Origin: Eubacteriales bacterium
Lineage (GTDB): Bacteria; Bacillota; Clostridia; Peptostreptococcales; Acidaminobacteraceae
DNA: 12,702 nt
Reading direction: 5' to 3'
NCBI GenBank assembly: GCA_030625285.1
Contig: DAOURC010000009.1
Span: forward strand, 1-12,702
In this document: positions 1,887 through 12,702 of the stretch, in pieces
Layout of the letters: each line of letters starts with the position of its first letter
Position numbering within the stretch: position 1 is the stretch's first letter
Made by a program: the position numbers and the translations under genes
Notes under the pieces: generated by a model
The model's database searches: none
The model's input: the letters and a program-made list of their open reading frames with translations, nothing else
What the model was told of the DNA's origin: nothing

Positions 1887-1911
1887 AAAGGCTGGAATTT
1901 CAGTCTTTTTT
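1887..1911 (+). terminator. Intrinsic terminator after the fliD-flaG-fliS group
   Basis: AAAGGCTG (1887-1894) pairs with CAGTCTTT (1901-1908), including one G-T wobble, across a GAATTT loop. It runs into an unbroken T tract ending at 1911. It lies 30 bases after the last chaperone-like gene and before the flgB promoter region, so it probably marks the end of the filament/chaperone transcript. Confidence 0.7.
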
Positions 1912-1955: not shown

Positions 1956-1985
1956 TTGAATAGTATACCTAATTAGTATTATTAT
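1956..1985 (+). promoter_or_regulatory. Candidate sigma-A promoter for the flgB cluster
   Basis: TTGAAT (1956-1961) and TATTAT (1980-1985) lie 18 bases apart, matching the TTGACA/TATAAT consensus at 4 and 5 positions. This is the only well-spaced pair I found in the 158-base gap, and it follows a terminator. Transcription would begin near 1992, giving a leader of about 24 bases with GGGAGTG at 2004-2010 before the flgB start. No sigma-D motif (TAAA, then GCCGATAT) was seen here. Confidence 0.5.
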
Positions 1986-2015: not shown

Positions 2016-2438
2016 ATGGGGATAAATGTAAATCTTTTCGCAGATAAAAATCTAGAAGTATTGAAAAAAGCCTTGGATGCGTCTTCGATGAGACAGCAGA
2101 CAATTACAAATAATATCGCAAACATAAATACTAAAGATTACAAGGCAAAAAGAGTACTTTTTGAAGACGAACTCAAAAAAGCAATTGGATCAGATGATAT
2201 GAAGGGTTTAACTACAACCAACGAAAAGCATATTGGCGGAAGTGAATCTATTAGAAAAATCAATCCTTCCATTGTGGAAGATACTTCAACTTCCGTAAAA
2301 AGTGACGGAAATAGCGTTGATATTGATATCGAGATGGTTAATCTCGCTAAAAATCAACTTATATATAATACGATAGTTCAACAGACATCAAAGAAATATT
2401 CAAATTTGAGATATATCATAAATGAAGGGAGACGTTAG
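2016..2438 (+). CDS. flgB: Flagellar proximal rod protein FlgB
   Basis: A 140-residue rod subunit with the flagellar rod/hook N-terminal signature '[25 protein letters not shown]' (about residues 29-53) and the C-terminal helix '[39 protein letters not shown]', typical of FlgB. FlgB builds the base of the axial rod on FliE above the MS ring and is exported by the type III apparatus without a cleaved signal peptide. The ATG at 2016 has GGGAGTG five bases upstream. Only two bases separate it from flgC, as in most flgB-flgC-fliE operons. Size is normal for the family. It is the first gene after the terminator and promoter at 1887-1985, so it probably starts the basal-body operon. Confidence 0.96.
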
Positions 2439-2440
2439 GT

Positions 2441-2854
2441 ATGAAACTATTTAGTTCGATATCTATAGCCGCTACCGGATTATCCGCTGAGAGACTTAGA
2501 ATGGATATTATTGCATCAAATATAGCCAATGTCAACACTACGCGAACCGAAGACGGTGGTCCTTATAAAAGAAAAATTGCAGTTTTCAAAGAAAACTTAG
2601 ATAATTCTATAAATAATAATAAACTCGGTGGAGTTGAAGTTGCAGGAATTGTAGAGGATACAACACCGCTAAAAAGAGTTTATGATCCTAATCACCCAGA
2701 TGCAGACGAAGAAGGATTTGTGATGATGCCGAATGTAGATATTTTAAACGAGATGGCGGATTTAATCATAGCAACGAGGTCATATGAAGCAAATGTCACT
2801 GCTTTAAATGCAAGTAAAAGCATGTTTTTAAAAGCGCTAGAAATAGGTAGATAA
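2441..2854 (+). CDS. flgC: Flagellar proximal rod protein FlgC
   Basis: A 137-residue rod subunit. The N-terminus '[42 protein letters not shown]' (residues 4-45) is the classic FlgC form of the rod signature, with the 'T-x-x-G-G-P-Y-x-R-K' extension that separates FlgC from FlgB. 'YVDPNHPDA' type sequence appears as '[30 protein letters not shown]', and the C-terminal helix '[27 protein letters not shown]' matches the family end. FlgC polymerises with FlgB, FlgF and FlgG to form the rod. GGGAG within the last codons of flgB serves as ribosome site, so the two are likely translationally coupled. It is followed by a 136-base spacer rather than the usual short gap to fliE. Confidence 0.97.
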
Positions 2855-2990: not shown

Positions 2991-3278
2991 ATGGAAATTA
3001 ATTCAGTATCTCAATATATGAACTTGGTTAATAAACAGCTTGATGGGGAATCAAAGTCGATTGATTTTTCTTCAGTAATGAAAAATTATTTAAGTGACGT
3101 AAACGAATTACAAGTTGTTTCAGATAAAAGTACAGAAGATTTAATCCTTGGTGAAACTGAAAATGTACACGAAGTGATGATTAAAGCCGAAGAAGCAAGA
3201 TTAGCGTTGGAACTTACAGTTCAAGTGCGAAATAAAGTTATCGAGGCTTATCAAGAATTGATACGAATGCAAATATAA
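2991..3278 (+). CDS. fliE: Flagellar hook-basal body protein FliE
   Basis: A 95-residue protein with the FliE pattern: a polar N-terminus, then 'IDFSSVMKNYLSDVNELQVVSDKSTEDLILGETENVHEVMIKAEEARLALELTVQVRNKVIEAYQELIRMQI'. The block 'G-x-x-x-x-x-H-x-V-M-I-x-x-x-x-A-x-x-x-x-x-L-x-x-x-V-R-N-K-x-x-x-A-Y-x-E-I/L-x-R-M-Q-I/V' is diagnostic. FliE links the MS ring and export gate to the rod base and is among the first rod proteins exported. GGAGTG at 2978-2983 is well placed for the ATG at 2991. Its last codons overlap a perfect TATAAT (3274-3279), and a riboswitch follows immediately. Confidence 0.96.
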   Translation: MEINSVSQYMNLVNKQLDGESKSIDFSSVMKNYLSDVNELQVVSDKSTEDLILGETENVHEVMIKAEEARLALELTVQVRNKVIEAYQELIRMQI

Positions 3279-3286
3279 TATTTAAT

Positions 3287-3369
3287 CTACGAAAAGGCAA
3301 ACCATTTGTGAAAATGGGACGCAAAGTTTCAGATCTAAATTAGATGGCTGGGCTACCGAAAAGGAAGCA
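3287..3369 (+). promoter_or_regulatory. Class I cyclic-di-GMP riboswitch aptamer (GEMM-I)
   Basis: Three conserved blocks of the class I c-di-GMP aptamer occur in order with correct spacing: GGCAAACC (3296-3303), GGGACGCAAAG (3316-3326) and GGCTACCG (3351-3358). Between the first two, CCATTT and AAATGG close a GTGA (GNRA) tetraloop (3302-3317), as required for the known tetraloop-receptor contact. Between the second and third is the receptor-side hairpin, with CAG/CTG outer pairs and ATCTA-AAT-TAGAT at 3333-3345. The ligand-contacting guanine in the GG of block one is retained; cGAMP-preferring variants carry A there. The outer P1 helix is not obvious by eye. An intrinsic terminator follows three bases later, so control of fliF and later genes by transcription termination is the likely mechanism. 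Confidence 0.93.
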
Positions 3370-3372
3370 AAG

Positions 3373-3399
3373 AGCTGTGTATTTTTATACAGCTTTTTT
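3373..3399 (+). terminator. Riboswitch expression-platform terminator upstream of fliF
   Basis: AGCTGTGTA (3373-3381) pairs with TATACAGCT (3386-3394), with one G-T wobble and a TTTT loop, and is followed by an unbroken T tract to 3399. It lies directly after the c-di-GMP aptamer and 30 bases before the fliF start, so readthrough into fliF should depend on the riboswitch state. Confidence 0.88.
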
Positions 3400-3429
3400 G
3401 TTGGAAAATATTAATCACAAGGAGCGCAT

Positions 3430-5013
3430 ATGACTGAATCGAACAAATCGGAAAATAGAGTGATAAAAGTGTGGAAAGGTATAAATCGAGGAAAAAGAAT
3501 AGGCATTGTTGCTTTTCTTTTGACAATGATATTAGCATTTTCCATATATTACATATTCATAGGGCATACTACATACACTCAATTGTTTTCCGGCCTGGGT
3601 ATGAAGGAATCGGCAAATATCGTGAGTAAACTCGATGAAATGAAAATCACAAATTATAGATTGGAAAACGATGGGAGCACCATTGTTGTTTCTGATAAAG
3701 ATATAAACAAGATTCGTCTTGAACTCGCTATGAATGATTTGTTGCCGGAGATTGGTGTGGGTTATGAAATTTTTGACAATGCCAGTTTTGCGATAACTGA
3801 TGAAGATAGAAAAATCATGTATCAAAGAGCTCTTGAAGGAGAACTTGCAAGGTCGATCATGAGTTTGGATGAAGTAAAATATGCTAGAGTGCATTTAGCG
3901 CTGACTGAAGAGACTTTATTCTCAAGAGAAGTAACTCCTGGAAGTGCAACGGTAGTCATAGAGCTAAATCCCATTATGCAATTTTCATCCGATCGTGTAA
4001 AAGGTATTGTAGCACTCATTTCCAGCGCTGTAAAAAATGTACCACCGGAAAACATAAGCGTAATTGATACTAAAGCAAATTTATTAAGTGAAAATATATA
4101 TTCTAATTCAGATTCAATGACAATTGGACAATCTGCTATAGATTCAATTACTATAAAACAACAATTCGAATCAAAACTCGAAGATGAACTTCAAAAAATG
4201 CTGGAACTTACATTTGGTAAAGGAAAAGTACTTGTAAATGTAAATGCGAAATTAGATTTGAATTCTGAAGAACTTACAATTATAGAATATGACAAAGACG
4301 GCATACTTAGATCTCAACAAGACAGCATTGTTAAAAATACATCCAATGGCGATGCTATCGATAGTTCGAGCCCTGTTGACAACAATATTGAATATTACAT
4401 CAGCAACACTGAGGAGGCTATGAATAATTCATCTGTCAGTAATTTTGAAACTGTAAGGAATTATGAAATCGGCGAGACGAGGACGTATCGGATTAAAGCT
4501 CCAGGTGAAGTAATAAGTCTATCCACATCGATTATTTATGATGGAGACTTATCTGAAGTTCACAAGACCTCTATTAGAAACATAGTAGCGGCCGCTATAG
4601 GAATTGATGAAAACAGAGGAGACATAGTAAGCGTAGAAGGAATAAATTTCGATAAAACTTATGAAGAAAATGCTATCAACGAGTTTAATATTGCTCAAGA
4701 AGAATATTTAAAAGAACAAGAATCCAAGAAAAAATATATGTTTTACGGCAGCGTTGCTGGAGGAAGCATTCTATTTATTTTAATTATTTTGATTGTAATT
4801 AGGATCGTTAGAGGTTCCAAAAATAATCAAAATTTTATTGATACAATGCAGCCGATTCCAATAAGTGAATTAGAACAGCAATCATCAGAACTTTCTCATA
4901 TCAAACCTTTTCAAGAAAAAGATATCGAGAGAGGTGTAAAGGATTATGCAGATGAAAATCCTGAAAAACTAGCAGATCTTGTAAAAACTTGGATGTTGAA
5001 AGATGAGGGATAG
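3430..5013 (+). CDS. fliF: Flagellar MS-ring protein FliF
   Basis: A 527-residue inner-membrane protein that forms the MS ring, the foundation of the basal body. Two membrane segments are visible: about residues 24-44 (IGIVAFLLTMILAFSIYYIF) and 438-460 (FYGSVAGGSILFILIILIVI). Between them lies a large extracytoplasmic part. 'YTQLFSGLGMKESANIVSKLDEM' to about residue 105 and 'VGYEIFDNASFAITDEDRKIMYQRALEGELARSI' to 'YARVHLALTE' (110-160) are the YscJ/FliF ring-building domains. Residues 225-410 hold the FliF-specific C-terminal domain, with 'RTYRIKAPGEVISLSTSIIYDG'. The cytoplasmic tail ends with 'KDYADENPEKLADLVKTWMLKDEG', the FliG-binding helix. AAGGAG at 3419-3424 supports the start. It is the first gene downstream of the riboswitch terminator. 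Length is normal. Confidence 0.98.
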   Translation: MTESNKSENRVIKVWKGINRGKRIGIVAFLLTMILAFSIYYIFIGHTTYTQLFSGLGMKESANIVSKLDEMKITNYRLENDGSTIVVSDKDINKIRLELAMNDLLPEIGVGYEIFDNASFAITDEDRKIMYQRALEGELARSIMSLDEVKYARVHLALTEETLFSREVTPGSATVVIELNPIMQFSSDRVKGIVALISSAVKNVPPENISVIDTKANLLSENIYSNSDSMTIGQSAIDSITIKQQFESKLEDELQKMLELTFGKGKVLVNVNAKLDLNSEELTIIEYDKDGILRSQQDSIVKNTSNGDAIDSSSPVDNNIEYYISNTEEAMNNSSVSNFETVRNYEIGETRTYRIKAPGEVISLSTSIIYDGDLSEVHKTSIRNIVAAAIGIDENRGDIVSVEGINFDKTYEENAINEFNIAQEEYLKEQESKKKYMFYGSVAGGSILFILIILIVIRIVRGSKNNQNFIDTMQPIPISELEQQSSELSHIKPFQEKDIERGVKDYADENPEKLADLVKTWMLKDEG

Positions 5014-5016
5014 AGT

Positions 5017-6039
5017 ATGGCAAGAAGCCGAACTACACATGAATTAACAGGAGTTGAAAAAGCAGCTATCTTTTTTATTACGTTAGGTCCAGAGCATTCT
5101 GCAAAGGTTATGAAGCTTTTGCCTGAAAAAATGATAGAGCAAGTGACTTACGAAATATCAAATATAACAAAAGTCGAACCCGAGATGAGAGAACTCGTAT
5201 TAAATGAGTTTATAGATATGAATGACAAATTCGATTATTTCATGGAGGGTGGAGTCGATTATGCGAGGGATGTGCTTACTAAAGCTTTGGGCTCTCAAAG
5301 GGCACAAGATATTATCGAGACATCTTCAATGATGGCTTTGACAAGAAAACCGTTTACTTTGGCAAGAAGATCAGACCCAGTGCAGCTTCTCAAGACGATT
5401 ATTACAGAACATCCTCAGACGATTGCGCTTATTCTTTGTTTTCTTCAACCGGAAAAAGCGGGTTCGATTCTTTCTAGCATACCCGACGAACTTCAGTCTG
5501 ATGTCGCTTTTAGAATTGCAACTATGAGTAAAACGTCACCTCTTGTTATAAAGAGAGTTGAAAAAGTATTAGATGAGAAGCTGTCGAATGTAGTCGATAG
5601 TAATTTCGAAGCATATGGCGGTGTGGATACTTTAGTAGGAATATTAAATTCAGTCAATAGACCTACCGAGAAAAATATTATGCAGCAATTGGATGATAGA
5701 GATCATGATTTAGCTGAAAAAATTAAACTTAACATGTTTATATTCGAGGATGTCATTACTCTTGACGATGCATCTATCCAAAGAGTACTTAGAGAAATCG
5801 ACAATAATGATCTTGTTGTGGCGATGAAAGGTGCTTCAGATGCTGTTACTGATGCAATATTTACAAATCTGTCTAAACGAGCTGCAGAGACATTGAAAGA
5901 AGATATCGAATTCCTAGGACCTGTTAGATTGACCGTTGTCGAGGAAGCTCAGCATAAGATTGTAAGTGTTATCAGAAGACTAGAAGAAGTCGGTGAAATA
6001 TTTATAACTAGAGGAGGAGAAGATGCAGTCGTCTTATAA
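5017..6039 (+). CDS. fliG: Flagellar motor switch protein FliG
   Basis: A 340-residue rotor protein. The N-terminal domain 'LTGVEKAAIFFITLGPEHSAKVMKLLPE' (10-37) binds FliF. The middle domain carries the conserved EHPQT motif at 131-135, used with FliM. The C-terminal domain contains 'MFIFEDVITLDD' (240-251) and the torque helix. By alignment in mind with the enteric protein, charged residues K271, R288, E295, D296 and R304 ('GPVRL') correspond to the stator-facing set, so torque function appears intact. FliG couples ion flow through MotA/MotB to rotation and carries the switch. It starts three bases after fliF, with GAGGGAT upstream, and its last 17 bases overlap fliH. Size is normal for the family. 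Confidence 0.98.
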   Translation: MARSRTTHELTGVEKAAIFFITLGPEHSAKVMKLLPEKMIEQVTYEISNITKVEPEMRELVLNEFIDMNDKFDYFMEGGVDYARDVLTKALGSQRAQDIIETSSMMALTRKPFTLARRSDPVQLLKTIITEHPQTIALILCFLQPEKAGSILSSIPDELQSDVAFRIATMSKTSPLVIKRVEKVLDEKLSNVVDSNFEAYGGVDTLVGILNSVNRPTEKNIMQQLDDRDHDLAEKIKLNMFIFEDVITLDDASIQRVLREIDNNDLVVAMKGASDAVTDAIFTNLSKRAAETLKEDIEFLGPVRLTVVEEAQHKIVSVIRRLEEVGEIFITRGGEDAVVL

Positions 6040-6778
6040 AATCTACAAAAATCAAGAAATCTCTTATGAAATAGAAGAGAAAGAAATTCCTCTTAAAGAC
6101 AATAAGTACATAGATAGGATTGGTTTTTCTTCCAATCAAGCAAATTCCCTATTCAAAAAAGCGAAAGAAGAAGCAAATAGAATCGTAGAAGTAGCAAAAG
6201 ATAAAGAAAATGAAGTTTATAATAAAGCTATTGCTGATGCTGATATAGTCATTGAAGAAAAGAAAAATGAAGCCTATTTAGAAGGAATGATAATAGGAAA
6301 GAAAGATGGATATGATGAAGGTTATAAAGATGGAATTTTAGCAAGCGAGCGAGAGAGTAAACATATTATTGAAGAGGCAAAAGAGACGTTAAGCGATGCA
6401 TTTGAAGAGTCAAAAAAAATCATCTTGGATTCACAAGAGAAAATAATTGAATTATCTTTAAAAATTGCTGAAGAAATCATTAAAAAAGAAGTGGAACTTG
6501 ACGATAGTATTATTGTGGGAATCACAAAAGCAGCTCTTTATGAAGTTCGAAACTTAAGACACATCATTATAAAAGTATTACCTGAGCATCAAAGTATTAT
6601 CGAGGACAATATTTCAAACTTTAAAGATATCTGTCCCGATGCGTATTTTACAATATTAAAAGACGCTTCTTTGAAAGACAATGGATGCATTATCGAAACA
6701 GATAAACAAATAATCGATGCAACAATCGATAGTCAATTAGATGTCATTAAGTCAATATTACTTGAAGCGAGAGATTAA
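6023..6778 (+). CDS. fliH: Flagellar export ATPase regulator FliH
   Basis: A 251-residue FliH, the stalk and negative regulator that tethers FliI to the export platform. Residues 40-85 form a charged helix. They are followed by an exact series of glycines every four residues (G88, G92, G96, G100, G104 in 'GMIIGKKDGYDEGYKDG'), the FliH GxxxG repeat, and then a long coiled coil. The C-terminal part 'ELSLKIAEEIIKKEVELDDSIIVGITKAALYEVRNLRHIIIKVLPEH' is the FliI-binding domain shared with V/F-type ATPase stalk subunits. The ATG lies inside the end of fliG, 17 bases overlapping, directed by GAGGAGGAG at 6011-6019. The stop abuts the fliI start without a gap. Confidence 0.94.
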   Translation: MQSSYKIYKNQEISYEIEEKEIPLKDNKYIDRIGFSSNQANSLFKKAKEEANRIVEVAKDKENEVYNKAIADADIVIEEKKNEAYLEGMIIGKKDGYDEGYKDGILASERESKHIIEEAKETLSDAFEESKKIILDSQEKIIELSLKIAEEIIKKEVELDDSIIVGITKAALYEVRNLRHIIIKVLPEHQSIIEDNISNFKDICPDAYFTILKDASLKDNGCIIETDKQIIDATIDSQLDVIKSILLEARD

Positions 6779-8086
6779 ATGAGTAAAAGAATCCCATTCG
6801 ATCGTTTTGAAAAAGCGATAAATGATAAAAAATTATATAAGACCATAGGAAAAGTTACTCAAATCATCGGACTTACAATACAAGTTGAAGGAATTAAAAG
6901 TTTTATCGGCGAAGCTTGTGAAATTGCTATAGGTGACAACGAGAAAGTCCTAGCAGAGGTTGTAGGTTTTAAAGGAGAAATCAGCTTGTTGATGCCACTT
7001 GGTGAATTGACAGGCATTGGTCCTGGCAGTTTAGTATATCCACTTGGACATTCATTGACGATAAAAGTTGGAAAAGGGTTATTGGGAAAAATTGTTGATG
7101 GATTGGGCAGACCGATTTCTGGAGAAGTTATCGAGCTAGAAGAGACAGTTAGCATTTATCAAAAACCGCCAAATCCACTGACTAGAAAACCTATAGAAAA
7201 TATTATGACGACGGGTGTTCGTTCCATTGATGGAATGCTGACTTGTGGAGAAGGCCAAAGACTTGGAATTTTTGCTGGAAGTGGTATCGGTAAAAGTACA
7301 CTTATGGGTAAAATATCGAGATCGTCTGATGCGGATGTAAATGTAATAGCACTTATCGGAGAGAGAAATAGAGAACTCCTTAATGTAATAAATAAAGATC
7401 TTGGTGAAGAAGGGTTAAAAAAATCGGTTGTATTGATTGCTACATCAGATCAACCAGCTTTGATAAGGTCAAAAGGTGCTTTTGTGGCAACGGCAATTGC
7501 AGAGTACTTTAGAGATCAAGGATTAAAAGTGATGTTTATGATGGACTCTGTTACAAGATTTGCGATGGCAGAAAGAGAAATCGGACTGGCTATTGGAGAA
7601 CCGCCGGCATCTAAAGGATATACTCCATCTGTTTTTGCAAGGTTGCCGAAATTGCTAGAGAGATCTGGAACGTCAGAAAAAGGTTCAATAACAGCCTTTT
7701 ACACAGTTTTGGTAGAAGGTGATGACATGAATGAACCGATTACTGATGCAGTAAGAGGAATACTTGACGGTCACATTGTTTTATCAAGAAAACTGGCCAG
7801 TAAGAATCATTTCCCTGCAATAGATGTACAAAGCAGTATCAGTCGTCTTATGAAACAGATAGTAAATGAAGAGCAGTACAATATCGCCGCAAAGATAAGA
7901 GATAATTTAGCGGTGTACGAAGAATCAGAAGATTTGATAAATGTAGGAGCTTATGTCAAAGGATCAAATCCTAAGATTGACGAAGCGTTGAAAGTGCATG
8001 ATTCGATAATTGATTTTTTACAACAAGAAAATGAAGATATGTCTACTTTCGAAGGAACACTAAATATGATGAAAAATATTTTTTAG
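6779..8086 (+). CDS. fliI: Flagellum-specific export ATPase FliI
   Basis: A 435-residue hexameric ATPase of the type III export apparatus, related to F1 beta subunits. The Walker A loop AGSGIGKST is at 166-174, the catalytic glutamate region 'ALIGERN' at 191-197, and the Walker B strand 'VMFMMD' at 251-256. 'MAEREIGLAIGEPPASKGYTPSVFARLPKLLERSG' follows at 263-297, and the ATPase alpha/beta signature region 'PAIDVQSSIS' lies at 346-355. All catalytic motifs are intact. FliI binds chaperone-substrate complexes and helps load them into the export gate. The ATG directly follows the fliH stop and has only a weak ribosome site (GAAGCGAGAG), so translation is probably coupled to fliH. Size is normal. 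Confidence 0.98.
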   Translation: MSKRIPFDRFEKAINDKKLYKTIGKVTQIIGLTIQVEGIKSFIGEACEIAIGDNEKVLAEVVGFKGEISLLMPLGELTGIGPGSLVYPLGHSLTIKVGKGLLGKIVDGLGRPISGEVIELEETVSIYQKPPNPLTRKPIENIMTTGVRSIDGMLTCGEGQRLGIFAGSGIGKSTLMGKISRSSDADVNVIALIGERNRELLNVINKDLGEEGLKKSVVLIATSDQPALIRSKGAFVATAIAEYFRDQGLKVMFMMDSVTRFAMAEREIGLAIGEPPASKGYTPSVFARLPKLLERSGTSEKGSITAFYTVLVEGDDMNEPITDAVRGILDGHIVLSRKLASKNHFPAIDVQSSISRLMKQIVNEEQYNIAAKIRDNLAVYEESEDLINVGAYVKGSNPKIDEALKVHDSIIDFLQQENEDMSTFEGTLNMMKNIF

Positions 8087-8096
8087 GAGATAAAAA

Positions 8097-8540
8097 ATGA
8101 AAAACAAGAAGTATTCATTGGAAAGCATTCTTAAAATTAGACATGATAAAGAAGAAGAAAAACTAAATGAGATGTCGTTATTACTTAATCAGTATCTTGA
8201 AAACGTAGAGACTGAGAAAAAGATGACATCGGATATCGACGACACTGTTTATAAAATGAATAGTGAGAAAATTTCAAATATTAGAAATCAGAAATCATGT
8301 TATTTGTATTTAGAAAAATTAAGGTTTGAATTAGACGAACAAAAAAGAACTGTTGAGCAAGCTGAAAGAGATTATGAAGGAAAGAAAAAAGAATACATTA
8401 AAGCTCAAATGGATAGAAAAGTGATTGAGAAACATAAAGAAAGATATGTTGAAACTATAAATTTGGAAATGAAAAAGAATGAAGAGCTGATGCTCGATGA
8501 ACTTGCTATTGTTTCTTTCAACAGAAGGAAATGTCAATAG
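8097..8540 (+). CDS. fliJ: Flagellar export protein FliJ
   Basis: A 147-residue, highly charged protein predicted to be two long antiparallel helices forming a coiled coil. This matches FliJ, the central stalk of the FliI ring, equivalent to the F1 gamma subunit. The N-terminus 'KYSLESILKIRHDKEEEKLNEMS' (basic, then 'L-x-x-I-L-x-x-R-x-x-x-E-E') and the C-terminus 'KVIEKHKERY' to 'LMLDELAIVSFNRRK' fit the family ('E-K-x-K-E-x-x ... D-E-x-A-x-x-x-F-x-R'). AGGAG overlapping the fliI stop serves the ATG at 8097. Sequence conservation in FliJ is low, and position between fliI and fliK adds most of the certainty. Confidence 0.92.
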   Translation: MKNKKYSLESILKIRHDKEEEKLNEMSLLLNQYLENVETEKKMTSDIDDTVYKMNSEKISNIRNQKSCYLYLEKLRFELDEQKRTVEQAERDYEGKKKEYIKAQMDRKVIEKHKERYVETINLEMKKNEELMLDELAIVSFNRRKCQ

Positions 8541-8572
8541 ATATAATATGAAAATGAGAGGGAGGTGAAAAA

Positions 8573-9913
8573 GTGAGTACAAATATGATACAACTGAATA
8601 GTAAGAAAGTAGAGACAGGAAATCTTGAAAAAATCAGTATAAAAACAAACGGTGAATCAAACGATGTAGATTTTCAAAATGTTTTAGCTGATCTGCTAGG
8701 AATGTCTATGGGGTTTGAAAATCTTGTTGAAGAGAATCAATTATCTGCTGAACTACCTCTAAATGGTGATATTAAAGAGCTGAAGATGCTTTTGATAAAT
8801 GAGAATAGAGCAAAAGACAAATTGACAATCAGCGATTTCAAATCATCGAACAACAATAACGATTTGAAAATGCCTAGAGAGAGCGATAGATTTTATCCAA
8901 ACGATACTAAAGTAGGATTGTCAAAAACAAATGCCGCAGGAAAACTTGTTACTGACATTCAAGCAGATTTGAATGTTAAGGAAATAGTCGCTTCAACTGA
9001 ACAAAAAGATATTGAATTTACTCCTCAAAGCTACAAAAATATGCTTAAGATCAAGTTTAAAGATGATGTAATTGAAACAAATGAAATTGTCAAGGAGAGT
9101 AGTGTTCAAGATAAAGATGTTGAGAAAGTTGTGGGTTTAAAAAAAGCGGTAGAAAACAATGATAAAAGAAAATCTGTTAGCTTCAAGATTGAAGACGGCA
9201 AACTGGTAAAGACGGAGAATAAGGAAACAGGACTTGAAAAAGCGGTGAAAAACAATGATAAAAGAAAACCTGTAAGCTTTAAGATTGAAGACGGTAAATT
9301 GACAAAGACAGATAATAAGGATACGGCCACTACAAAACCTAATGAACTTGAAAAAGCAGTAGAGAGCAGTGGTAAAAGAAAGCCTACAGATCTAGAGATT
9401 GAAGATGACAAAATGATAAAACCAGAGAGTTCGTTGGTATCAAAAGCACAGGGCAATAAGGCTAGTATATCAAATCAAGCTAAAGCCATTGAGAATAATC
9501 AAGAAGTAAGAGAAGCCATGGTCGAGAGCATTAAAGAAGCTCAGACAAACGGCGTATCAAAAGTCAAGATTATGCTGAAACCTGCGGAGCTAGGCAATGT
9601 AGAAATTGAGCTTAAAATGGAAGATGGAAAAATTAAAGGAGAAATCAAGGTTTTAAACGCTGAGATAAAAAATCAGATTGAACAATTGGTTCTACCTGTA
9701 AAAGAAGTCTTGAAAGAGCAAAATATCTTTATTAAAGATTTTCAAGTAACGGTTTCTAGTCAGTCTTCCGATGGAGAATTTTCAAACAATCAAAATATGG
9801 ATTCTCATCAAAATAAGTATGAACCTAAGTTTGTAGATTATCATTATAATGAAACTAGTCAAGAAGATTACGAAGTGCAAAATGATGAAAAAGGATTGAA
9901 TTTATTTGCATAG
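8573..9913 (+). CDS. fliK: Flagellar hook-length control protein FliK with internal repeats
   Basis: A 446-residue, hydrophilic FliK. It is secreted during hook assembly, measures hook length and switches export specificity to filament proteins. The conserved C-terminal domain is at about 328-396: 'SKVKIMLKPAELGNVEIELKMEDGKIKGEIKVLN' with the family L-x-P-x-x-L-G-x-V motif, ending 'LKEQNIFIKDFQVTV'. The N-terminal ruler part is low-complexity and holds three tandem repeats (residues 189-286, described separately). The start is GTG at 8573, chosen because GGGAGGTGA at 8560-8568 lies at ideal distance; an ATG twelve bases later would be too far. It is followed by flgD, as in other Firmicutes. 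Confidence 0.93.
   Translation: MSTNMIQLNSKKVETGNLEKISIKTNGESNDVDFQNVLADLLGMSMGFENLVEENQLSAELPLNGDIKELKMLLINENRAKDKLTISDFKSSNNNNDLKMPRESDRFYPNDTKVGLSKTNAAGKLVTDIQADLNVKEIVASTEQKDIEFTPQSYKNMLKIKFKDDVIETNEIVKESSVQDKDVEKVVGLKKAVENNDKRKSVSFKIEDGKLVKTENKETGLEKAVKNNDKRKPVSFKIEDGKLTKTDNKDTATTKPNELEKAVESSGKRKPTDLEIEDDKMIKPESSLVSKAQGNKASISNQAKAIENNQEVREAMVESIKEAQTNGVSKVKIMLKPAELGNVEIELKMEDGKIKGEIKVLNAEIKNQIEQLVLPVKEVLKEQNIFIKDFQVTVSSQSSDGEFSNNQNMDSHQNKYEPKFVDYHYNETSQEDYEVQNDEKGLNLFA
9137..9430 (+). repeat. fliK: Three tandem repeats within the FliK ruler region
   Basis: Three consecutive units of 32, 38 and 28 codons begin at 9137, 9233 and 9347. Each reads L-x-K-A-V-x-x-x-x-K-R-K-x-x-x-x-x-I-E-D-x-K. 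Units one and two share 'NNDKRK' and 'VSFKIEDGKL' and are also close at the DNA level, with mostly synonymous differences. Unit three is more diverged. The unequal unit lengths arise mainly in the spacer after 'K-T-x-N-K', which in unit two is extended by 'TATTKPNE'. Confidence 0.9.
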
Positions 9914-9926
9914 GAGGTGAAAACAA

Positions 9927-10373
9927 ATGGATATAAGCAGCATTACCAATCAAACGGTTGCGGATACGACAGTGAAAAAAAATGCTGGAGGCGACTTGGG
10001 AAAAGACGAATTTTTAAAAATTTTAGCTGCGCAACTTCAGTTCCAAGACCCTATGGAAGGTGGAGATAATTCAGCATACGTGGCACAACTTGCACAGTTT
10101 TCTTCATTAGAACAGATGGAAAATTTAAATACCAGCTTAAACGAACTGAAAGGCAATCAGAATTTACTTTATGGAACATTATTGATAGGCAAAATGGTAA
10201 ATATAGCTTTTGACAATCAGATGGTAAGTGGTGTAGTCGATAAGGTCAAACTAGTCGATTCTATGCTAAAAGTCATGGTTGGTGGGCAGGAGTACGATGC
10301 TAGCAATATTTTGACTTTAGAAGATGAAGAAGAAGTTGTTCCAGTTGAAAGCAGTGAGGAAGTGATAGAATGA
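9927..10373 (+). CDS. flgD: Flagellar hook assembly scaffold FlgD
   Basis: A 148-residue hook-cap protein needed to polymerise FlgE. The conserved region 'GGDLGKDEFLKILAAQLQFQDPMEGGDNSAYVAQLAQFSSLEQMENLNTSLNEL' (about 21-74) is the FlgD N-terminal signature, containing 'FLKLL-x-x-Q-L-x-x-Q-D-P' and 'QLAQFSSLEQM'. The protein then has a short strand-rich segment and an acidic tail. It lacks the C-terminal Tudor/FnIII-like domains of the enteric protein (about 230 residues), as is common in Firmicutes. AGGAGGTGA at 9912-9920 is a near-perfect ribosome site for the ATG at 9927. The stop overlaps the next gene by four bases (ATGA). Confidence 0.96.
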   Translation: MDISSITNQTVADTTVKKNAGGDLGKDEFLKILAAQLQFQDPMEGGDNSAYVAQLAQFSSLEQMENLNTSLNELKGNQNLLYGTLLIGKMVNIAFDNQMVSGVVDKVKLVDSMLKVMVGGQEYDASNILTLEDEEEVVPVESSEEVIE

Positions 10374-10759
10374 CAAACAGAATCAATAATCAAAACATCA
10401 AACAGGTTGGACAATCAAGCCAAAATTTGAACAAGCAAAAAATCAACCGTAATGCTGAGAGATTTAGCCAGATATATCAACAAGAAATAACTGACAAAAA
10501 CGAGATTAAACTTTCTGCGCATGCAAGGCAGAGACTTAAGCAGAGAAACATTGAACTAAGTGAAGCGGACATGAATGCTTTAAGTAGAGGAATGCAAAAG
10601 GCTGAAGAAAAAGGCGGAAAAGAATCTTTGCTTTTGTATAAAGACTTAGCTTTTATTGCAAGCGTTAGAAACAGAACATTGATTACAGCTGTCGATCAAA
10701 AAGAGACAAAGGAAAATGTTTTTACGAATATAGACAGTGCGGTGATTATAGAAGAATAA
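10370..10759 (+). CDS. Conserved flagellar operon protein, TIGR02530-type, unknown function
   Basis: A 129-residue hydrophilic protein between flgD and flgE, the usual place of the small 'flagellar operon protein' family recalled as TIGR02530. The recognisable core is 'IKLSAHARQRLKQRNIELSEADMNALSRGMQKAEEKGGKESLLLYKDLAFIASVRNRTLITAVDQKETKENVFTNIDSAVII' (about 45-127). It contains S-x-H-A-x-x-R-L-x-x-R-N-I-x-L and the late 'N-R-T-x-I-T-A-x-D'. Residues 1-44 are Asn/Gln-rich and probably flexible. No signal peptide or membrane segment is visible. The start overlaps the flgD stop (ATGA), implying translational coupling. Its function is not established; a role in hook assembly is inferred only from position. 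Confidence 0.85.
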   Translation: MTNRINNQNIKQVGQSSQNLNKQKINRNAERFSQIYQQEITDKNEIKLSAHARQRLKQRNIELSEADMNALSRGMQKAEEKGGKESLLLYKDLAFIASVRNRTLITAVDQKETKENVFTNIDSAVIIEE

Positions 10760-10761
10760 AA

Positions 10762-10838
10762 TAGGCTGGACCTCCATGAGGAAGCCTAGTACCTTTGACT
10801 GATTGATAAGGTGCACACTTTCATGAAAAATTAGGAGG
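10762..10838 (+). promoter_or_regulatory. Structured leader of flgE with an internal anti-Shine-Dalgarno stretch
   Basis: Two hairpins fill the gap before flgE. In the first, TAGGCT (10762-10767) pairs with AGCCTA (10783-10788), and inside it CCTC (10771-10774) pairs with GAGG (10778-10781). In the second, GTACCTT (10789-10795) pairs with AAGGTGC (10808-10814), with one wobble. Neither has a T tract. A perfect TTTCATGAAA palindrome follows at 10819-10828. The CCTCC at 10771-10775 is complementary to the GGAGG of the flgE ribosome site at 10834-10838, so local and long-range pairings would be mutually exclusive. No known riboswitch class is recognised. Confidence 0.5.
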
Positions 10839-10846
10839 AATTAAAT

Positions 10847-11734
10847 ATGTTAAGATCATTATATTCAGGCGTTAGTGGAATGAGAAGCAATCAAACGAAA
10901 ATGGATGTCATCGGTAATAATATCGCCAATGTCAATACAACGGCTTTTAAAGCTGGTAGAGCGGGATTTCAAGATCTGTTTTCACAGACTTTGTCAAACG
11001 CACAATCGCCTTCAGCTACAGGACGTGGTGGAATCAACCCGAAACAAGTAGGTTTGGGGGTTTCTGTTGCATCTATAGATACAGTTATGAGCGGTGGAGC
11101 ATTGCAACCGACAGGTAGAGATTTAGACTTCGCAATAGAGAACGAAGGGTTTTTCATTGTATCTCAAGATACTGCTGGAGATATTAGAAGACTCACACGT
11201 GACGGAGCTTTTTTTACAGATTTTGAAGGAAACCTTGTAAATGCAGAAGGCTTAAGAGTTCTAGGATACGCTCCGAATGGAGCTTATGATGACGTTACGA
11301 TTCCAGCAAACGATTCTGATTATGGAGCGCTTACAACAATTACAATTCCCAACTCGATTACAGTTGGTGGAAATGAGCTTAGTTTAGAAACTTTCTCGAT
11401 AGATGGAACAGGCCTCGTTCAAGGTATCTATAACGATGGAAATGTATATAAACTCGGGCAACTTGGGATTGCTAAATTCAAAAATCCAGGTGGTCTTGAA
11501 AAATTAGGTGGAAACACGTATAGAGAAACGCGAAACTCTGGAACTACTGAAATCGGGATAGCGAGCCAAGGTGGATTTGGAACCATAAGACAAGGTGTGA
11601 GCGAGATGTCGAATGTCGACCTTGCCAATGAATTTACTGAGATGATTATTACAAGTAGAGCATATCAGGCTAATTCTAAAACTATCAGTACATCGGACGA
11701 GATGCTTCAGCAACTTTTGAATCTTAAGAGATAA
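10847..11734 (+). CDS. flgE: Flagellar hook protein FlgE
   Basis: A 295-residue axial protein that forms the hook. The N-terminus '[49 protein letters not shown]' is the hook/rod signature. Next is 'PKQVGLGVSVASIDTVMSGGALQPTGRDLDFAIENEGFFIV', and the C-terminal helix is 'MSNVDLANEFTEMIITSRAYQANSKTISTSDEMLQQLLNLKR'. The D2-like middle is short, so the protein is smaller than enteric FlgE (about 400) but close to the Bacillus protein (about 264). FlgG is similar in these ends; position after flgD and before flbD-motA favours hook. No cysteine is present, so the lysinoalanine cross-linking known in spirochaete hooks is not possible. AGGAGG at 10833-10838 supports the start. Confidence 0.95.
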   Translation: MLRSLYSGVSGMRSNQTKMDVIGNNIANVNTTAFKAGRAGFQDLFSQTLSNAQSPSATGRGGINPKQVGLGVSVASIDTVMSGGALQPTGRDLDFAIENEGFFIVSQDTAGDIRRLTRDGAFFTDFEGNLVNAEGLRVLGYAPNGAYDDVTIPANDSDYGALTTITIPNSITVGGNELSLETFSIDGTGLVQGIYNDGNVYKLGQLGIAKFKNPGGLEKLGGNTYRETRNSGTTEIGIASQGGFGTIRQGVSEMSNVDLANEFTEMIITSRAYQANSKTISTSDEMLQQLLNLKR

Positions 11735-11739
11735 ATGAA

Positions 11740-11784
11740 TTTCTTGGCTTCAGAAGGAGTTGTGTTCTAGCTGAAGCTTAGAAA
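11740..11784 (+). other. Large stem-loop just after flgE
   Basis: GCTTCAG (11747-11753) pairs perfectly with CTGAAGC (11771-11777). The helix extends outward by a G-T wobble and, after one T-T mismatch, by TTTCT/AGAAA (11740-11744 with 11780-11784). The 17-base loop contains AAGGAG. There is no T tract, so this is not a standard terminator. It begins six bases after the flgE stop and may act as a 3' stabiliser or processing signal. Confidence 0.5.
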
Positions 11785-11828
11785 GCATAATCCAGAGGCT
11801 GTAGAATTCTTAGTCATCGGATAAATAA

Positions 11829-11860
11829 TATAAGGGTTGGGCTTTTAGCCCACCCTTATA
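11829..11860 (+). other. Strong 14-base-pair hairpin between flgE and flbD
   Basis: TATAAGGG (11829-11836) pairs with CCCTTATA (11853-11860), and after one bulged T, TGGGCT (11838-11843) pairs with AGCCCA (11847-11852) over a TTT loop. All 14 pairs are Watson-Crick. On the + strand the following bases (AAAGTAAGAAGGG) are not T-rich, so it would be a poor intrinsic terminator. It ends 22 bases before flbD, near its ribosome site. It could set relative expression of flgE and the flbD-motA genes, for example by RNA cleavage or by pausing. Confidence 0.6.
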
Positions 11861-11882
11861 AAAGTAAGAAGGGTGAAAAATT

Positions 11883-12068
11883 ATGATTGAATTAACTTCA
11901 CTGCACGATGAAATTTTTTATTTGAATATTGATAGAATGGAAAAAATGCAGGTTTTGTCTGATACGTTAATCACATTGGTAGATGGAAAAGTGATACGTG
12001 TAAAAGAGACTCCTGATGAAATAATAGAAAGAATTATTGAATTTAAAAAACAAGTTGGATGGAGGTAG
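11883..12068 (+). CDS. flbD: FlbD/SwrD family flagellar protein
   Basis: A 61-residue protein matching the FlbD family: 'MIELTSLHDEIFYLNIDRMEKMQVLSDTLITLVDGKVIRVKETPDEIIERIIEFKKQVG'. The family pattern is M-I-x-L-T-x-L-x-x-x-x-F-x-L-N-x-x-x-I-E, then P-D-T-x-I-x-L-x-x-G-x-x-x-x-V-x-E-x-x-x-E-V-I. The usual proline before 'DT' is serine here. The Bacillus subtilis homologue SwrD (YlzI) raises motor power and is needed for swarming. Placement immediately before motA fits a link to the stator. AAGGGTGA about six bases upstream supports the ATG. The end of the gene supplies the motA ribosome site. Confidence 0.93.
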   Translation: MIELTSLHDEIFYLNIDRMEKMQVLSDTLITLVDGKVIRVKETPDEIIERIIEFKKQVGWR

Positions 12069-12071
12069 CTA

Positions 12072-12702
12072 ATGAAAAAAATTGATATTGTTCCTATTGT
12101 CGCTATCTTCGTTGGAACCTCACTAATAATTATGGCAATGGCAATGGGCGGCAGTCTAATGATGTTTTGGAGTGTATCATCTCTAATCATAACTATGGTT
12201 GGCTCTTTTATGGCGCTGCTGGCGAGTTTTCCATTTAAAGTTTTAAAACAAACACCAACAATTTTAAAACAGGCTTTTGTGCATCCGCTGGATAATAGAG
12301 TAGAGCTTGTGACCATGGTTTCAGATCTTTCTAGAAAAGCTCGTTCAGAAGGACTTTTATCATTAGAAGACGAACTTACTACTATGGAGGATGAATTCTT
12401 AGTTAAAGGTTTACAAATGGTAGTTGATGGTATCGAGCCAGAAAATATCAAGCAGATTATGGAATTGGAAATAGGAGCTATTGAGAGAAGGCACTCTATG
12501 GGTCATAGTATTTTTAAATCTTGGGGAGATCTTGCGCCAGCCTTTGGTATGATTGGAACATTGATTGGTTTGATAACAATGCTGAGTGACCTTACCGATG
12601 CCAGCGCTATTGGTATAGGTATGGCTACAGCTTTGATTACGACTTTTTATGGAGCTTTTTTTGCAAACATGGCATTGATACCAATCGCCAACAAATTGCA
12701 GA
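12072..12702 (+). CDS. motA: Flagellar stator protein MotA, truncated by window end
   Basis: The first 210 residues of a MotA-type stator subunit, open at the right edge; about 50-60 residues are missing. The protein starts 'MKKIDIVPIVAIFVGTSLIIMAM' with membrane segments at about 7-25, 33-53, 155-172 and 180-205. The cytoplasmic loop has 'SRKARSEGLLSLEDEL'; R91 and E99 lie eight apart, like the FliG-contacting R90/E98 pair of the enteric protein. 'DLAPAFGMIGTLIGLITML' (153-171) carries the conserved proline P156, equivalent to P173, and 'LIPIANKL' holds the second conserved proline. MotA with MotB forms the ion channel that drives rotation; the coupling ion cannot be decided without MotB. 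GGAGGT at 12061-12066 overlaps the flbD stop. Confidence 0.96.
   Translation, partial: MKKIDIVPIVAIFVGTSLIIMAMAMGGSLMMFWSVSSLIITMVGSFMALLASFPFKVLKQTPTILKQAFVHPLDNRVELVTMVSDLSRKARSEGLLSLEDELTTMEDEFLVKGLQMVVDGIEPENIKQIMELEIGAIERRHSMGHSIFKSWGDLAPAFGMIGTLIGLITMLSDLTDASAIGIGMATALITTFYGAFFANMALIPIANKLQ

Follow-up and report, generated by a model that had tools for sequence, protein, structure and literature searches.

Class I c-di-GMP riboswitch at the fliE-fliF junction, a probable OFF switch within a flagellar operon

What does a c-di-GMP riboswitch control when it does not precede a flagellar operon but lies within it? The question is raised by a stretch of 12,702 nucleotides from an Acidaminobacteraceae genome (G000), in which a class I aptamer is located between fliE and fliF; the whole stretch is referred to as the window. 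Four other genomes (G003, G031, G443 and G109) carry an aptamer at the same site. We consider it quite probable that the element acts as a transcriptional OFF switch within the flgB-flgC-fliE-fliF operon, sparing flgB, flgC and fliE. The features of the locus are as follows.

1889..1906, + strand: terminator-like hairpin upstream of flgB (-6.2 kcal/mol, then TTTTT)
1956..1985, + strand: putative promoter-like site before flgB, TTGAAT-18-TATTAT (consensus scan only)
2016..2438, + strand: flgB, ahead of the riboswitch (TIGR01396, 124.3 bits, cut-off 59.05)
2441..2854, + strand: flgC, ahead of the riboswitch (TIGR01395, 176.4 bits, cut-off 102.1)
2991..3278, + strand: fliE, ahead of the riboswitch (TIGR00205, 98.2 bits, cut-off 30)
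3287..3361, + strand: c-di-GMP-I aptamer (RF03167, RF01051 and residue mapping)
3302..3317, + strand: P2 hairpin with a GUGA loop at 3308-3311 (Rfam structure line)
3325..3354, + strand: P3, short and without the usual tetraloop receptor arm (base pairs, by-eye comparison with the RF01051 consensus)
3341..3381, + strand: predicted antiterminator, 3344-3349 with 3373-3378 and 3341-3342 with 3380-3381 (minimum free energy fold, transcript cut at 3385)
3373..3399, + strand: intrinsic terminator, hairpin 3373-3394 and T-run to 3399 (-10.7 kcal/mol)
3419..3424, + strand: RBS-like AAGGAG before fliF (sequence)
3430..5013, + strand: fliF, first gene behind the switch (TIGR00206, 232.2 bits, cut-off 129.75)
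5017..12702, + strand: fliG, a fliH-like gene, fliI, further genes and a motA-type gene (profile searches, reading frames)

The original prediction had placed the element behind flgB, flgC and fliE and ahead of fliF, and the NCBIfam gene matches agree with this order. Two of the later assignments are weaker: the fliH-like gene (109 bits) and the motA-type gene (207 bits), which is truncated by the window end, both score below their cut-offs. From 3400 to the window end, a script requiring a hairpin with 6 or more pairs and a stability of at least -6 kcal/mol, followed by six Ts, found no further terminator-like site on the + strand. The flagellar sigma factor FliA gives a match over its cut-off on the same strand, about 16-18 kb downstream of fliF, in G031, G109, G001 and G341, the distance being about 17-18 kb in G031 and G109, and on a contig separate from fliF in G000, G003 and G443. 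Since FliA follows fliF on the same strand in these relatives, it probably stays under the switch while flgB, flgC and fliE escape.

Some observations on the surroundings may be added. Ahead of flgB, a 159-residue protein encoded at 1378-1857 has no NCBIfam match, and similar proteins occupy the same place in three related records (L013-L015). The genes at 1008-1370 and 2-619 are presumably fliS and fliD, which they resemble. A palindrome-rich repeat element is found in intergenic gaps of the operon, with matches at E 0.001 in G000 (two: 2855-2960 of the window, in the flgC-fliE gap, and G000:C105:6602-6668), G003 (three: C60, C194 and C137) and G031 (one: C221:67573-67600); in G031 it also lies in the fliE-aptamer gap.

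The identity of the aptamer is well defined. A covariance-model search of the genome with Rfam gives RF01051 a score of 63.4 bits at 3286-3360 (cut-off 35), and cmscan gives RF03167 (c-di-GMP-I-GGC) 60.0 bits at 3287-3361 (E 2.3e-12), one bit above its gathering score of 59. The predicted class and site, between fliE and fliF, are therefore borne out. RF03167 is the family kept by cmscan for the window and for G003 (60.1), although RF01051 gives the window more bits, and the copies of G031, G443 and G109 are reported under RF01051. The three aptamer blocks and the GNRA-capped hairpin of the original prediction could be located as well, the blocks at 3296-3303, 3316-3326 and 3351-3358 and the hairpin as P2 with its GUGA loop. 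All 18 P2 and P3 pairs that have letters on both sides in the Rfam alignment are standard. In P1, the three pairs of the RF03167 alignment are all non-canonical; a shift of one base permits C3290-G3358 and G3291-C3357, and the structure line of RF01051 contains no P1. The fold of 3279-3429 is better than that of 200 out of 200 shuffles (z -2.94).

GUGA is a GNRA loop, but the receptor arm is absent, so that the combination of tetraloop and receptor characteristic of type I is lacking. The missing receptor defines a subtype and not the class: judged from its letters, the window aptamer belongs to the subtype with a GYRA loop and no receptor. This GEMM-I subtype ("type II") is described in the available part of PMC11218506, and the window shares both its traits, the GUGA loop and the lack of a receptor. 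At this site of the operon, the copies of G443 and G109 differ from it and carry GAAA loops. The weak P1 and the absent receptor arm could also be signs of a decayed, non-functional riboswitch. We give this reading very little credence, as the core blocks are intact, the copy of G003, from the same genus, is nearly identical across the aptamer, the stem of the terminator is preserved, apart from some base changes, in G003 and G031, and a GYRA subtype without receptor is already on record (PMC11218506, same part).

The residues that contact the ligand point to c-di-GMP. The Vc2 residues G20, A47 and C92 correspond to G3296, A3323 and C3356, mapped by their positions relative to P2, J2/3 and J1/3: position 20 is the base directly before P2, position 47 the base after P2 and position 92 the second base of J1/3. 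The mapping draws on the helix limits of a cGAMP aptamer (excerpt of PMC6274999), on three Bc1/Vc2 residues (excerpt of PMC11218506) and on the window's own pairs. A different ligand, 3',3'-cGAMP or another dinucleotide, deserves consideration since a single G20A change lets a GEMM-I aptamer bind cGAMP, as stated in the same excerpt of PMC6274999, and two GEMM-I copies of this genome carry A at position 20. In the window aptamer, positions 20 and 92 are G and C, so that it does not carry the A20 of GEMM-Ib aptamers, which makes another ligand highly improbable; c-di-GMP is the probable ligand.

The two A20 copies, out of five GEMM-I aptamers in G000, are located at G000:C122:2428-2515 and G000:C114:2849-2936 (L001, L003). 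The latter forms a tandem with a G20 copy (3022-3110), and the former is followed by a gene for a secreted-type protein that appears to resemble copper amine oxidase N-domain proteins.

The aptamer is followed by an intrinsic terminator, as the original prediction had it: a hairpin AGCTGTGTA-TTTT-TATACAGCT at 3373-3394, then TTTTT. A simple terminator scan of the window did not list this hairpin, perhaps because an extension of its stem by A-U and G-U pairs consumes the T-run. Folding of the nascent transcript suggests a competing structure. When the transcript is cut at 3385, the 5' arm of the terminator (3373-3378) pairs with the 3' strand of P3 (3344-3349) in the lowest-energy fold, which at -25.2 kcal/mol is better by 8.4 kcal/mol than the fold with the aptamer enforced (-16.8). 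The inner hairpin of this predicted antiterminator, 3352-3368, also pairs C3356. In the longer transcript aptamer and terminator coexist; the terminator is present both with the aptamer enforced (-29.2 kcal/mol) and in the free fold (-32.7). In the predicted folds, the aptamer is thus compatible with the terminator and exclusive with the antiterminator, as in a Cd1-type OFF switch, and it is from these two relations that the OFF logic follows. Since the terminator is present in the full-length fold even when there is no ligand, the switch must be kinetic.

These folds lead to the following picture. At low c-di-GMP, the nascent RNA would pair the 5' arm of the terminator with aptamer strands, forming the antiterminator, and the polymerase would continue into fliF and the genes beyond. 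With c-di-GMP high, the ligand would hold the aptamer, leaving the arm free, so that the terminator could form and transcription would end before fliF. The genes flgB, flgC and fliE, being upstream of the switch, would escape this cut-off, and a polar effect on fliF and the later genes would result.

The opposite direction, an ON switch in which the ligand prevents termination, has a precedent in a GEMM-I relative, the pilM switch (PMC9262584, in the part available), and the presence of the terminator in the ligand-free full-length fold could be read in its favour. It is nevertheless improbable: the predicted folds make the aptamer compatible with the terminator and incompatible with the antiterminator, the class I switches of C. 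difficile are described as OFF in the accessible text of PMC11477304, and a motility operon suits OFF control. The OFF direction thus agrees with both the predicted antiterminators and the studied Cd1 switch.

It could also be imagined that the riboswitch heads a transcript of its own, which would start near 3286 from an internal promoter at the fliE end, with flgB-flgC-fliE as a separate unit. A perfect -10 hexamer, TATAAT at 3274-3279, ends 7 bases before the first base of the aptamer. Its -35 partner, ATCAAG, 18 bases away, is poor, and the hexamer falls out of the Gln-Ile-stop codons of fliE; the corresponding letters are TATAGT in G443 and TTTAAT in G109. The aptamer begins 8 bases past the fliE stop, a gap too short for a terminator that would close a separate unit, and in G031 the gap between fliE and aptamer measures 216 bases. 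We therefore regard such a promoter as rather unlikely, and even if it were active, polymerase coming from flgB would still run into the switch. Whether transcription starts at the flgB promoter or at the fliE end, fliF and the later genes lie behind the switch either way. The reading that we prefer is the OFF switch reached by read-through from the flgB promoter.

How common is this placement? The survey set consisted of 198 genomes of the order, of which 122 have FliG; with two (G483, G503) left out, 120 stretches from 119 other genomes were searched together with the window, 121 in all, up to about 5 kb upstream of fliG. The 16 aptamers underlying the search model (R1) include those of the window, G003, G031, G443 and G001, which match by construction, and the matches outside R1 are that of G109 (L099) and 17 further ones. 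A strong aptamer, of at least 53 bits, was present in 23 of the 121 stretches. According to profile searches with FliE and FliF, 18 of these are upstream of fliE, at the operon head, and five are between fliE and fliF. In 10 of the 120 stretches the contig ends less than 2000 bases upstream of fliF, and nine of these ten are without an aptamer match, so that a head aptamer could be missed there. At all 18 head loci, every rod-protein match is downstream of the aptamer; two rod genes, flgB and flgC, follow it in 17, and in G518 the first rod gene after it is flgC.

The five mid-operon aptamers belong to two families and three genera. All score above the RF01051 cut-off of 35: the window and G003 (63.0), G443 (63.1), G109 (65.4) and G031 (51.5 bits). 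L013, L014 and L015, which are treated as the records of G003, G031 and G443 and counted once, show the order flgB-flgC-fliE-aptamer-fliF; their FliF proteins are 88, 70 and 49% identical to that of the window. The placement had been called unusual, and it is indeed the rarer one, with five cases against 18 at the head; it is not unique, and its occurrence in five genomes makes it a conserved variant.

Several candidates for a wider distribution were discarded. A match in L136 (19.9 bits, E 0.047) lies inside fliF. In a class-wide search for a fliE end combined with an aptamer, found in six of 391 genomes, four of the six were rejected as chance after inspection by eye, being without the GACGCAAA block or a FliE-like reading. 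An arrangement common to the whole family f1 was likewise rejected, as among the 30 f1 genomes with FliF three have the mid-operon and one the head position. The names f1, f3, f4 and f90 are labels assigned by the survey tool, and f4 is presumably the family of C. difficile. In f90, which is near in the FliF tree, none of the three stretches has an aptamer match.

Two of the mid-operon aptamers have individual traits. That of G109 (L099, 3187-3273) carries U at the position of C92, yet scores 65.4 bits; its ligand preference may differ. That of G031 (L093, 3235-3327) is divergent, with GGUAAUCC and GGUGCACAAAG in place of GGCAAACC and GGGACGCAAAG, and one of its P2 pairs is changed on both sides, from C-G to U-A.

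The expression platform can be compared across these loci. All five mid-operon loci, with terminator limits set by hand, have a hairpin and a U-run (-10.7 to -5.5 kcal/mol), and folding of transcripts cut before the 3' arm pairs the 5' arm with upstream sequence in each of the five (best 6-nt stretch 0.96-0.99). The window, G443 and G109 have their predicted partner inside the aptamer. The window employs the 3' strand of P3; in G443 and G109 the 5' strand of the aptamer (AAAGGGC) is used, as in the head-type loci L199 and L200. For G003 and G031 the folds place the partner at the aptamer end or immediately 3' of it, which renders the coupling to the aptamer less direct. When the arm was shuffled, 12, 90, 37, 32 and 30 of 400 shuffles (window, G003, G031, G443 and G109) reached the observed pairing; this support is only moderate, and each antiterminator prediction taken alone is modest. 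Among the 18 head-type loci, six were folded in the same manner. L199 and L200 clearly pair the arm with the aptamer 5' strand (AGGC), and this design was not seen in the other four: in L198 and L204 the arm mostly pairs at or just after the aptamer 3' end, in L209 it pairs with sequence near and after that end, and in L191 folding of the cut transcript gave no clear antiterminator. An automatic finder detected no terminator in five of the 18 head loci (L101, L195, L188, L189 and L194). The same OFF logic would be reached in the mid-operon relatives of the window via different pairings.

How the switch came to its position is suggested by a FliF tree of 120 rows, calculated with a quick method, for which the tool warned of long branches meeting near the root. 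The five mid-operon rows form one group with an SH-aLRT of 94, just under the tool's mark of 95. The next larger supported group (97) comprises 10 rows: besides these five it includes G001, which has a head aptamer, and four rows lacking an aptamer; it joins a group of 19 rows that holds 16 head aptamers. As the mid-operon group stands beside carriers of the head position, the switch has probably moved inward. The simplest reading of the tree would be an ancestral head position, a single inward move, and losses in f90 and G002. The mid-operon aptamers may instead have been gained independently, which would accord with the GYRA loops of the window, G003 and G031 as against the GAAA loops of G443 and G109.

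As a separate observation, the flagellar FliG and FliF of G000, G003 and G031 are nearer to those of f3 and f90 (61-66% for the window FliG) than to those found elsewhere in their own family f1 (48-55%). This may be a sign that the operon was transferred horizontally, or else of noise in the taxonomy.

Returning to a single inward move, its consequences may be sketched. The transfer from the head to the fliE-fliF site would have turned control of the whole operon into a gate at the MS ring: high c-di-GMP would stop basal body, export gate, hook, motor and FliA but keep FlgB, FlgC and FliE, which could shorten the restart of flagellum assembly, and aptamer subtype and antiterminator design would have changed more than once while the OFF logic was kept. 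We see this scenario as evenly balanced between right and wrong. If it is true, cells at high c-di-GMP keep these three rod proteins. The two positions offer a natural comparison, with the same sensor at two points of one operon, so that the reason for giving up whole-operon control becomes directly testable. They also suggest that an operon can retain internal riboswitch control over long divergence, with FliF identity falling to 49%, even as its expression platform is remodelled.

The closest known system is that of C. difficile, where a review (PMC11477304, accessible text) places a class I switch before the flgB operon and describes the class I switches of this species as OFF. Its aptamer class, intrinsic terminator, flagellar operon and OFF logic, the last of these predicted for the window, all match, and there too the flagellar sigma factor is located further down the operon (PMC11477304). 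For Cd1, an OFF switch, aptamer and terminator are described as coexisting and as competing with a transient antiterminator (PMC9262584, available part); such coexistence is likewise found in the predicted fold of the window. Cd1 precedes the whole operon, whereas the window switch is not at the operon head and has flgB, flgC and fliE ahead of it. Among the titles and abstract openings listed by an open-access library, none reports a c-di-GMP riboswitch at the fliE-fliF junction. What is new is the mid-operon position common to five genomes; aptamers of this class, their OFF logic and their connection with flagella are already known. Terminators between the genes of an operon, which lead to different levels on either side, are known as internal transcription attenuators (for example PMC9045158 and PMC10450193, in the parts available). 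The window shares with them a terminator within an operon, and differs in that its terminator is predicted to be gated by a ligand.
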